64,000 nucleotides of DNA from the NCBI GenBank assembly GCA_038734275.1, contig JAVYOO010000003.1:1-64000 (forward strand). Direction: 5' to 3'. Shown piece after piece: positions 39,973 through 55,803 of this stretch (position 1 is its first letter; each line of letters begins with the position of its first letter). The notes under the pieces were generated by a model. It made no database searches, was not told where the DNA came from, and worked only from the letters and a program-made list of their open reading frames with translations. The translations under genes and the position numbers were made by a program. Source of the stretch: Archaeoglobaceae archaeon. Lineage in GTDB: Archaea; Halobacteriota; Archaeoglobi; Archaeoglobales; Archaeoglobaceae.

Positions 39973-41055
39973 TTATTTTTCCGACTCCAAAACATCGATC
40001 ACGTCGAGTTTTTCAACAAAAGCCTTGAAATTCTTTGACAGGCTTGGCTCAGTCCTGCCAGAATCTCCGCTTACGAGCTCCTTTATATAAAGTCCTGCCT
40101 CAGCTTCGAATTTTAGAACTGCAATTTTGCCAAAATGGGCTAAAATTTCAGCCTTATAAAGCCTTCTGATTCTTAGTTTGTCCGCTCTTCTATGAAGAAC
40201 TCTCTCTGGAGTTTTTTGCCTTATTTCACCAATAAGCTCATTAAGTGCTCTCTCAAGCTCTTCTTTGCTCACTTCTCTATCAAAAACGACTTTTGCTCTA
40301 TAGACTTTCCTAAATCTTTCTTCCTTAACTCTTTCAACGTCTTCAGAATTTGCATAGCTCAATTGCTTAACTCCAACCTTTCCTTTTGAGAACTCGTTTA
40401 TTCTTCTCTCCAGCTCGCTCAAATCAACCCTTCTCTTCTTTGGTTCGATGATCTCAAGAACAAAAGGTCTTCCATTGCCAAGCATTCTTGCGTCCACGTC
40501 TTCTCTGCCAGATCCATGAAGAACCGCATCTCTTGCATCGAAGAGCTCAATTGCGGGAGTTGAAATTAATTCTTCAACGGAATAAAGATATCTTTTGCCT
40601 GTATAATTGCAGATCTCGCATCCCACGCCTTTGCATTTTCCACAAAGCCATCTTGTCTGAGAAATGTTTCTTATCCTCTTTATATATCTCCCGTAAATAT
40701 ATATTGGCTTAATATTTATTTGAAAGCTTAAATCTTCTGGATTGAAAATTATAAGAACGTCAGGATCAATAGAGAGCCTTTTACCAGTTATCGACTTTAG
40801 TTTTGACTGCAGTTCATTCTTTATCTCCGATTTGAGGTCGTAATCAATTCCTATAAGCTCAAAAAATTCCTGCAAAGCTCTAAAGCTACCTTCACTCCTT
40901 ATACCGACTTGAAAGCTTTCAAACTCGAAATCAAGCTTTTTTGAGATCTCCTCTGAGATATCGTCGATTTTCTCAAAAATACCACCACAAAATGAACAGC
41001 TTTCGCTTCCTGCTGGAAAAATTTTTAGCCTTTCGGCGCATCTTTTGCAGATCAT
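39973..41055 (-). CDS. pus10: tRNA pseudouridine synthase Pus10 (Psi54/Psi55)
   Basis: This 360-aa protein has an N-terminal zinc site made of CKRC and CSFC. A second CGKCKGVGCEICNYTG motif precedes the catalytic domain, and HGSGREDVDARMLGNGRPFVLEI contains the catalytic Asp. This arrangement is specific to Pus10, which makes pseudouridine 54 and 55 in the T-loop of archaeal tRNAs. The central THUMP-like region spans about 60-150. It is divergent from sir2, with 49 nt between the starts. Confidence 0.93.
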   Translation of the reverse strand: MICKRCAERLKIFPAGSESCSFCGGIFEKIDDISEEISKKLDFEFESFQVGIRSEGSFRALQEFFELIGIDYDLKSEIKNELQSKLKSITGKRLSIDPDVLIIFNPEDLSFQINIKPIYIYGRYIKRIRNISQTRWLCGKCKGVGCEICNYTGKRYLYSVEELISTPAIELFDARDAVLHGSGREDVDARMLGNGRPFVLEIIEPKKRRVDLSELERRINEFSKGKVGVKQLSYANSEDVERVKEERFRKVYRAKVVFDREVSKEELERALNELIGEIRQKTPERVLHRRADKLRIRRLYKAEILAHFGKIAVLKFEAEAGLYIKELVSGDSGRTEPSLSKNFKAFVEKLDVIDVLESEK

Positions 41056-53349: not shown

Positions 53350-54099
53350 ATGGACGAAAAGCTCGCACTTAGTCTTTCAAGAGAGGTTGCAAAGAATGTC
53401 CTCAAAGCTATTAACAGCATTCCCGCAGGAAGAAGAGGAGAATTTTATGAGATTGGTAAAAGCGGGGTAACAAAGCTTGTTGATAAGGTTGCCGAAAATG
53501 CAGCTTTGGAAGTTCTAAAAAAAGAAAAGCTTAGAATTTTAAGCGAAGAATGCGGATATGTTGGTGAAGGGGACGTTTTTGTAGCTCTTGATCCTCTTGA
53601 CGGAACTTTTAATGCAGTTCGCGGGATTCCAATTTATTCGGTAAGTTTATGCTTCTCTGATTCGGAAAAATTTGGCGATTCTTTCTTTGGCTATGTTTTC
53701 AATCTATGCAGTTGCGATGAATATTATGCTGACTCGAAGGCTTACAAAAACGAAAAGGAGATAAAGGTAGGAGAGAAGGAGAAATTAGAAGAGCTGAATG
53801 CAATCGTCTATTACCCAGATCGCATGTTGCCATTTAAGAGGATAAGAGCCCTTGGCAGTGCAGCACTTGAAACCTGCTTTGTTGCTGAGGGTATTTTCGA
53901 CTGCTTCATAGATCTGAGGGGAATGTTGAGGATCTTTGACATCGCTGGTGGGGTATATATTCTTGAAAAGGCTGGAGGAATTGCTGTAGATGAGAAGGGC
54001 AATTCATTGGAGAAAAAGAAGTTTGAAATCGCGGAGAGAGTAAATGTTATTGCCACGAACAAAAAGCTGTATAGGCAATTGCTGGAGCTGGTTGTATGA
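53350..54099 (+). CDS. suhB: Inositol-monophosphatase / fructose-1,6-bisphosphatase family phosphatase
   Basis: This 249-aa lithium-sensitive-type phosphatase has EECGYVG (Mg Glu), the core DPLDGTFNAVRGIP (Asp-Pro-Leu-Asp-Gly-Thr, about residues 78-91) and a C-terminal FDIAGGVYILEKAGG motif. Archaeal members hydrolyse myo-inositol-1-phosphate and also fructose-1,6-bisphosphate. They can contribute to di-myo-inositol-phosphate or gluconeogenesis. The stop overlaps nadK by 4 nt. Confidence 0.9.
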   Translation: MDEKLALSLSREVAKNVLKAINSIPAGRRGEFYEIGKSGVTKLVDKVAENAALEVLKKEKLRILSEECGYVGEGDVFVALDPLDGTFNAVRGIPIYSVSLCFSDSEKFGDSFFGYVFNLCSCDEYYADSKAYKNEKEIKVGEKEKLEELNAIVYYPDRMLPFKRIRALGSAALETCFVAEGIFDCFIDLRGMLRIFDIAGGVYILEKAGGIAVDEKGNSLEKKKFEIAERVNVIATNKKLYRQLLELVV

Positions 54100-54848
54100 A
54101 GTCCGCAATAGTTTACAAGTCACCCGAAATCCTTGAAAAGGTTGAAAAGGTCATTTTGGAGCTTGGTCACGAAGTTAAAAGCTTTTCAAAGCCCTCAAAA
54201 TCGCTTGAGAACTTTGACTTCATAGTCAGCATAGGTGGTGATGGCACAATTCTCTCAATTCTTCAAGAAGTCAGGAAATGCCCTCCAATCTTTGGCATAA
54301 ATTCTGGGAGAATTGGGTTCTTGACACACTCAAATTCGGCGGACTTTGAAGAAAAGCTTAGAAATGCACTTGTAAAATTCGAGACTGAGAAGTTTGACAG
54401 AATAAAATGCTCCTGCGATAATGGGGAATGCTTAGCTTTAAATGAAATTGCCTTTCTTGGCAAAGAAAGGGCAAAGCTTACAGAATTCTCGATTAAGATT
54501 GATTCCGTTGAGGTTGACAGGCTCAGATGTGATGGAATAATAGTGGCAACGCAAATAGGCTCAACCGCTTACTCATTCTCCGCTGGCGGTCCTGTTGTGG
54601 AACCTTATCACAGCTCGATGCTCATAGTGCCCATTGCTCCCTTCAGATTTGGCTGGAAGCCAGTAGTGATTAAAATTGATAGGGTTGTTGAGCTTGAAGC
54701 CAAAGCAGGCGGAATTGCGGTTGTTGATGGAAAAAGAACTTTTGAGACGAGCAGAATTGTTGTGACGAAATCGGAATTTCCTGCGGTTTTCTTTAAACGT
54801 GTAGACAGAATTAAGCATCTTTTCTATATTATGAAGAAAATAGAATAA
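54096..54848 (+). CDS. nadK: NAD kinase
   Basis: This 250-aa protein has the diacylglycerol-kinase-like motif SIGGDGTILSIL (about residues 47-58). It is followed by FGINSGRIGFLTHS, ALNEIAFLGKE and the NAD-binding GSTAYSFSAGGPVV. It phosphorylates NAD to NADP. The ATGA overlap with the IMPase gene implies co-translation; in some archaea the two activities are fused in one protein, so the linkage is meaningful. Confidence 0.92.
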   Translation: MKSAIVYKSPEILEKVEKVILELGHEVKSFSKPSKSLENFDFIVSIGGDGTILSILQEVRKCPPIFGINSGRIGFLTHSNSADFEEKLRNALVKFETEKFDRIKCSCDNGECLALNEIAFLGKERAKLTEFSIKIDSVEVDRLRCDGIIVATQIGSTAYSFSAGGPVVEPYHSSMLIVPIAPFRFGWKPVVIKIDRVVELEAKAGGIAVVDGKRTFETSRIVVTKSEFPAVFFKRVDRIKHLFYIMKKIE

Positions 54849-54877
54849 GATTTAATATCTCTTGCAGACTATTTTTA

Positions 54878-55093
54878 GCCCCCGAACGGGGAAGAGGCGG
54901 AGGAAGCGGAGCTTGCGATGAAGCCTTTCTGCGAGCTCGGGGGAACATGCCATGTTGATAGGTCCCCTGAAGAGCGAGCAAAAATGCTTGCAATGATTCT
55001 GGGGCAACCCGAACATGGGACAGCCCTCGGGGGGTCAAACGTCATGAGCGAGCGTTTGCTTGCGGTGAATGACGGTGTTACTCCCGAGGCACA
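54878..55093 (+). ncRNA. Triple-hairpin H/ACA pseudouridylation guide RNA (predicted)
   Basis: A G+C-rich segment in an A+T-rich genome folds into three hairpins of the same design. Lower stems are CCCCCGA/TCGGGGG (54879-54885/54937-54943), CCATGTT/AACATGG (54950-54956/55012-55018) and CCTCGGG/CCCGAGG (55025-55031/55083-55089). Each is followed one nt later by ACA (54945, 55020, 55091). The apical stems (GCTTGC/GCGAGC type) each carry a consensus kink-turn: a 3-nt bulge then GA, opposite GA (for example GGT-GA at 55064-55068 against GA at 55046-55047), the L7Ae site of archaeal H/ACA RNAs. In hairpin 3 the pocket (GGGTCA 55032-55037, GTTACT 55077-55082) lies exactly 14 nt before ACA and can pair with AGUAAC-UA-UGACUC of 23S helix 69. 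A T-run follows. It resembles the three-stem Afu-4 RNA described in Archaeoglobus. Confidence 0.8.
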
Positions 55094-55803
55094 TTTTCTT
55101 TAAAGCTTCTGTAAATCTCAACAGCCTTCTTCCATTCTTCTTCGCTTAGCAAGGGGTCTCTGGCTCCATTTAGCAAAAAGGCTTCAGTTCTCTCAACGCA
55201 GGTTCCACAGCTCAAGCATGGTCGGGCTTCGCCACGATAACAGCTCCAAGTGAGCTCATACGGCACTCCAAGCTTTAAACCCAGTGCTACGATTTCAGCT
55301 TTACTCATGTCAATAAAAGGTGCTCTGAGCTCAACTTCGTTCCATAGATTGCCCAGATAGATTGCGGTGTCCATCGCCTTTACAAATTCTTTTCTGCAGT
55401 CAGGATAAACGCTGTAATCGCTCTTGTGTGCAGCATAGTGAACTTCTTTTGCTCCAATTTTAACAGCGTAGCCAACCGCTATGGAAAGCAGAATCATATT
55501 TCTGTTTGGCACAATTGTTGCTCTCTGCCTTTCTTCAGTGTAAAACCCTTCAGGAACTCTGCTATCGCCAGTTATGGCCCCCAAGGATATTAATTCGTGT
55601 ATCGAAGTTATGTCAACTATTCGATGCTCAAAATTCTTCACCAATCTTGCCCTCTCAGTAAGCTTTTTAGCGAATTCAACTTCTTTTGAATGCCTCTGAC
55701 CGTAGATAAATGTAAGGGCGGAAAGCTCATAGCCTTTGCTGAGTAGGTAATAAAGAAGCGTTGAGGAATCCACGCCACCGCTGAAAATTAGCACCGCCTT
55801 CAT
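55078..55803 (-). CDS. queC: 7-cyano-7-deazaguanine synthase QueC
   Basis: This 241-aa enzyme has the PP-loop SGGVDSSTLLYYL (residues 8-20) and a C-terminal zinc site (CYRGEARPCLSCGTC, four cysteines near 208-222). It converts 7-carboxy-7-deazaguanine to preQ0, the base used for archaeosine and queuosine. Together with the Tgt at 2814 it belongs to the 7-deazaguanine tRNA-modification pathway, though in separate operons. Its last codons (NVPRE-stop) are antisense to the 3' end of the H/ACA RNA, 55078-55093. Confidence 0.93.
   Translation of the reverse strand: MKAVLIFSGGVDSSTLLYYLLSKGYELSALTFIYGQRHSKEVEFAKKLTERARLVKNFEHRIVDITSIHELISLGAITGDSRVPEGFYTEERQRATIVPNRNMILLSIAVGYAVKIGAKEVHYAAHKSDYSVYPDCRKEFVKAMDTAIYLGNLWNEVELRAPFIDMSKAEIVALGLKLGVPYELTWSCYRGEARPCLSCGTCVERTEAFLLNGARDPLLSEEEWKKAVEIYRSFKENVPRE

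Follow-up and report, generated by a model that had tools for sequence, protein, structure and literature searches.

Between a NAD kinase gene and the convergent gene queC, a 64,000 nt stretch of contig JAVYOO010000003.1 from an Archaeoglobaceae archaeon (assembly GCA_038734275.1; hereafter, the window) contains a short region that an initial annotation, made from the letters alone, had read as a box H/ACA guide RNA with three hairpins and an antisense overlap with queC. The locus raises the question of whether this region is a guide RNA gene in its own right and, if so, to what family it belongs, which ribosomal uridines its pockets address and whether its overlap with queC has any significance.

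Architecture and family identity of the RNA

Sequence reading and folding revealed three H/ACA hairpins arranged head to tail and separated by 2-nt linkers (Table 1). In each of them, a lower stem of 7 bp leads to an internal pocket and then to a GA stem with a kink-turn on top, and an ACA lies 1 nt past the lower stem; as in box H/ACA RNAs, all three kink-turns are of the L7Ae type, with a 3-nt bulge plus GA/GA. In archaeal guides the lower stem is followed by an ANA box, and a distance of 14–15 nt from this box to the GA stem is productive (PMC4652768); the corresponding ACA-to-GA-stem spacing is 14, 15 and 14 nt in hairpins 1, 2 and 3, in agreement with this rule. Two of the hairpins are imperfect: in hairpin 1, the C-stem is interrupted by a single G-G mismatch and the tandem GA is flanked by an additional G-A, and in hairpin 3 the GA stem has an A-G mismatch close to its base. 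The folding energy of the RNA (−97.7 kcal/mol) was better than that of all 200 dinucleotide shuffles (−78.1 ± 4.3 kcal/mol; z −4.6). A geometric descriptor matched at three places in the 64-kb window, which are exactly these hairpins, with none on the other strand and a total of two matches in 12 windows of shuffled sequence; because the descriptor was built from these same hairpins, these figures are an estimate of rarity and not a blind test.

Table 1. Position of the RNA, its structural elements and its neighbors in the window.
Feature	Position	Strand	Basis or detail
NAD kinase, upstream neighbor	54096..54848	+	Pfam PF20143/PF01513
TATA-like element TTTAATAT	54850..54857	+	−29 to −22 from RNA start
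Whole HgcG/Afu-4 type H/ACA guide RNA	54879..55093	+	RF00064, 89 bits
Hairpin 1	54879..54947	+	lower stem 54879-54885/54937-54943
Hairpin 1 guides	5′ guide 54886-54891, 3′ guide 54931-54936	+	
Hairpin 1 kink-turn	GA 54900-54901, bulge GAU 54917-54919, GA 54920-54921	+	
Hairpin 1 ACA	54945-54947	+	
Hairpin 2	54950..55022	+	lower stem 54950-54956/55012-55018
Hairpin 2 guides	5′ guide 54957-54963 (or to 54964), 3′ guide 55005-55011	+	
Hairpin 2 kink-turn	GA 54972-54973, bulge AAU 54992-54994, GA 54995-54996	+	
Hairpin 2 ACA	55020-55022	+	
Hairpin 3	55025..55093	+	lower stem 55025-55031/55083-55089
Hairpin 3 guides	5′ guide 55032-55037 (GGGUCA), 3′ guide 55077-55082 (GUUACU)	+	
Hairpin 3 kink-turn	GA 55046-55047, bulge GGU 55064-55066, GA 55067-55068	+	
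Hairpin 3 ACA	55091-55093	+	
queC, convergent downstream neighbor	55078..55803	-	TIGR00364, 229 bits
T-rich run directly past the last ACA	55094..55101	+	sequence

When the window was scanned with 4227 Rfam families, the sole non-tRNA match above threshold was to HgcG (Pab40; RF00064), with 89 bits for a curated threshold of 77 (E = 1.4e-22) and along the complete model (1–276 of 276); the match spans positions 54822-55098, with the model taking in ~57 nt of upstream flank. The RNA is the Archaeoglobi orthologue of the known and experimentally studied HgcG/Pab40/Pf7/Afu-4 RNA, and not a new family. The HgcG/Pab40/Pf7 RNAs of Pyrococcus, like that of the window, have three hairpins. Likewise, Afu-4 of Archaeoglobus fulgidus (motifs Af4.1, Af4.2, and Af4.3), which we take to be locus L020 in our comparison, contains three hairpins in the same order and with nearly the same pockets; however, their stem sequences differ and hairpin 3 from the window establishes a longer pairing with helix 69. 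Hairpins 2 and 3 also correspond to HP1 (E. coli 2586) and HP2 (1915/1917) of Haloferax volcanii, whereas this haloarchaeal RNA lacks a counterpart of hairpin 1 and has a long spacer between hairpins (PMC2584109).

The family model identified one copy of the RNA in its own genome; within the family it matched 49 genomes out of 55, and within the class 53 out of 59, in most cases with a single match each, and all the named records carrying the hairpin-2 signature are from Archaeoglobi. Two relatives that are 98–99% complete (G051 and G007) yielded no match with either the family model or the hairpin-2 pattern, possibly from loss, divergence or an assembly gap, nor did this pattern bring out the RNA in genomes lacking a family-model match. 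Weaker second matches to RF00064 (21.7–33.7 bits) occur at G023:C1:686136-686339, G024:C214:4884-5053, G017:C18:94127-94304, G048:C11:17963-18182 and G025:C1:438959-439091, and are possibly other H/ACA guide RNAs. Additionally, the homolog from a relative of the same order (L053, from G055) bears a long insertion in the apical stem of hairpin 3.

Among 40 aligned orthologues the stems varied, while the pockets were nearly invariant (GGUC/CAACCC in hairpin 2 and GGUCA/GUUA in hairpin 3) and the kink-turn bases were mostly invariant or at least 90% conserved. In this alignment 90.2% of the cells were paired versus 37.7–49.4% with slid partners, a control biased in favor of the structure, which came from the window sequence itself; this bias does not explain the number of double-sided compensatory cells, 340 compared to 116 ± 10 in shuffles, and all five measures exceeded every shuffle. 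Both the covariance search and the search for compensatory changes in orthologous loci, proposed in the initial annotation, hence came out in favor of its reading as an H/ACA guide RNA, which is also backed by the promoter position and the target pairing described below. Every hairpin element that it described is present in the sequence, the fold and the descriptor matches, and the class was correctly assigned, although the RNA was not recognized as the already described HgcG family; the RNA starts at 54879, one base later than in its proposed span, 54878-55093.

Predicted rRNA targets

We scored every U of the 23S and 16S rRNAs from this same genome for bipartite guide pairing, using 100 shuffled guides as a control. 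The three pockets show bipartite complementarity around an unpaired UN, which is strongest for hairpin 3 and, when each is considered by itself, weaker for hairpins 1 and 2. The best site for hairpin 3 was L1968 (E. coli 1915, in helix 69), with 10+9 positions and no shuffled guide out of 100 equaling it. Hairpin 1 was best at L2540 (P. abyssi L2588) in the 14-nt register, with a weaker second site at S1160 (A. fulgidus S1167); the 15-nt register, which we also tried, did not produce any target beating the shuffles. The best sites for hairpin 2 were L2599, in the A-loop, or L2630 (E. coli 2586), in the peptidyl transferase ring. With this genome alone, 6–8 of the 100 shuffled guides scored as well as hairpins 1 and 2, so that support for their targets comes from conservation and from the published orthologues. 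The top target across orthologues was L2540 for hairpin 1 and L1968 for hairpin 3, each in 30 of 40, and either L2630 (29 of 40) or L2599 (8 of 40) for hairpin 2, although the orthologues are related by descent and were scored against the rRNA from the window, so that the counts are supportive rather than independent tests.

Coordinates were anchored on helix 69, where A. fulgidus L1970 is L1968 here, which places L2599 at A. fulgidus L2601; for S1160 the numbering differs by 7, the A. fulgidus position being S1167, and the offset for P. abyssi was taken from L2016, which equates L2540 with L2588. The published targets of Afu-4 (S1167, L2601, and L1970) have exact counterparts here, and those of Pab40 stems I and III (Pab40.1 and Pab40.3; L2588 and L2016) likewise map onto sites found in our analysis. 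Another published proposal, L1364 for Af4.3, was judged unproductive in PMC4652768. In turn, L1932 is the site assigned to Pab40.2, whose 3′ guide is 23 nt long, whereas hairpin 2 from the window has an ordinary 7-nt guide; this site had no counterpart among the best matches listed for this hairpin in its own rRNA.

The invariant pocket bases of hairpin 2 fit L2630 better than L2599: the GUC (preceded by G in 38 of 40 orthologues) and AACCC complement the GACC and GGGUU around L2630, while the guide positions required solely for L2599 vary among orthologues. Together with the first rank of L2630 in most orthologues, this argues against the idea that L2599 is the only uridine modified by hairpin 2, as reported for its equivalent L2601 in A. 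fulgidus, to the exclusion of L2630. Nevertheless, L2599 corresponds exactly to the A-loop L2601 published as the target of Af4.2b (PMC4652768), obtained the best score for hairpin 2 in this genome (−19.5 versus −17.7 for L2630) and keeps a 10-layer GA stem, whereas pairing with L2630 takes a base otherwise closing this stem, a point against it by the 10-layer rule. For E. coli 2586, it has been reported that the haloarchaeal HP1, a homolog of stem II of Pf7, could guide this position, that Pf7 has three hairpins of which stems II and III match the Haloferax guides for 2586 and 1915/1917, and that Pab40 could fold in a way suited to 2586, although the modification was not found experimentally in P. 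abyssi (PMC2584109). Since such proposals exist for haloarchaea and Pab40, that of L2630 extends an existing idea to the Archaeoglobi. Overall, we regard an action restricted to L2599 as rather unlikely; from the pattern of conservation we tentatively suggest that hairpin 2 could be dual-purpose, with L2630 as its deeply conserved target, either alongside the A-loop site or in its place.

Gene boundaries and overlap with queC

The TATA-like element begins right after the stop codon of the NAD kinase gene, which occupies the same position in genera g1 and g2. In 49 orthologous upstream regions, numbered from the first base of the lower stem, the A+T content was 0.90–1.00 at −29 to −25, as compared to ~0.5–0.8 around it. 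These positions are the place of the archaeal TATA box; therefore, the conservation of this TATA-like position indicates that the RNA most likely has its own promoter. The T-rich run following the RNA is a possible transcription end, and the proportion of T is raised to ~0.5–0.65 at +2 to +5 in the orthologues. The window also contains, ~14 kb from the guide RNA, a gene for Pus10, the tRNA pseudouridine 54/55 synthase, which is a guide-independent pseudouridine enzyme (39973-41055, minus strand; TIGR01213, 388 bits).

The initial annotation also postulated a co-constraint between the guide pocket and the end of queC. The 16-nt antisense overlap is real, because the stop codon of queC occupies positions 55078-55080 and the 3′-most 16 nt of the RNA are 55078-55093; it covers only this stop and the last few codons, and this TAA stop is complementary to the UUA within the hairpin-3 guide's conserved GUUA. 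Besides the window genome, G050 and G053 show the overlap, and queC occupies the same position in the near-identical G052. Conversely, queC ends 64 nt beyond the RNA in G046, from the same genus, and yet the last 14 nt of its RNA (ACTCCCGAGGCACA) are identical to those from the window; moreover, the flank fetched for other genera did not show queC, and neither was it found beside the RNA in L020. We therefore rejected the co-constraint, because the overlap is limited to a few genomes of one genus and the RNA keeps the same end in its absence. For the same reasons, and given how little of queC is covered, it is highly improbable that the overlap seen in these close relatives is a functional antisense arrangement coupling both genes. 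The 3′ sequence of the RNA appears to be most simply explained by its rRNA target, with the end of queC being there by chance. For an RNA located between two convergent genes and overlapping one of them, it might be considered that the fold arose by chance, or that it is just the structured 3′ end of one of the neighboring messengers (NAD kinase or queC) and guides nothing, but this is already made very unlikely by the strong covariation across genera without queC in the flank and, with an own TATA-like position, the Rfam match and pockets matching known target sites, we give it practically no credence.

Proposed function and implications

We consider it nearly certain that this locus encodes, under a promoter of its own, an archaeal box H/ACA guide RNA with three hairpins, orthologous to HgcG/Pab40/Pf7/Afu-4. 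Profile searches showed that the genome encodes the partners of such RNAs, namely Cbf5 (527 bits), L7Ae (182 bits), Nop10 (88 bits) and, probably, Gar1, for which there is a candidate below the Pfam cut-off (25.4 bits, E 1.5e-5). In each hairpin, L7Ae would bind the kink-turn and Cbf5-Nop10-Gar1 the lower stem and ACA, and the pocket would hold a stretch of rRNA in which Cbf5 would convert one uridine to pseudouridine. The predicted targets are L1968 for hairpin 3, L2540 and, more weakly, S1160 for hairpin 1, and L2630 and/or L2599 for hairpin 2. Structure, family membership, conservation, promoter position, target pairing and the presence of partners are shown by this analysis, while we infer that in this organism the RNA is transcribed, assembles into an RNP and actually directs modification.

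These results fix the annotation of an RNA gene for an uncultured lineage of Archaeoglobaceae and provide a covariation-backed alignment for an RNA that would serve the intersubunit and peptidyl transfer regions of the ribosome. If hairpin 2 is indeed dual-purpose, and with hairpin 1 reading sites in both the 23S and 16S rRNAs, a single RNA would serve up to five sites within or close to the functional centers of the ribosome. The alignment also predicts a pseudouridine at the position equivalent to E. coli 2586 in Archaeoglobi, which would bear on the discrepancy between haloarchaea, where this position is modified, and P. abyssi, where the modification was not found.
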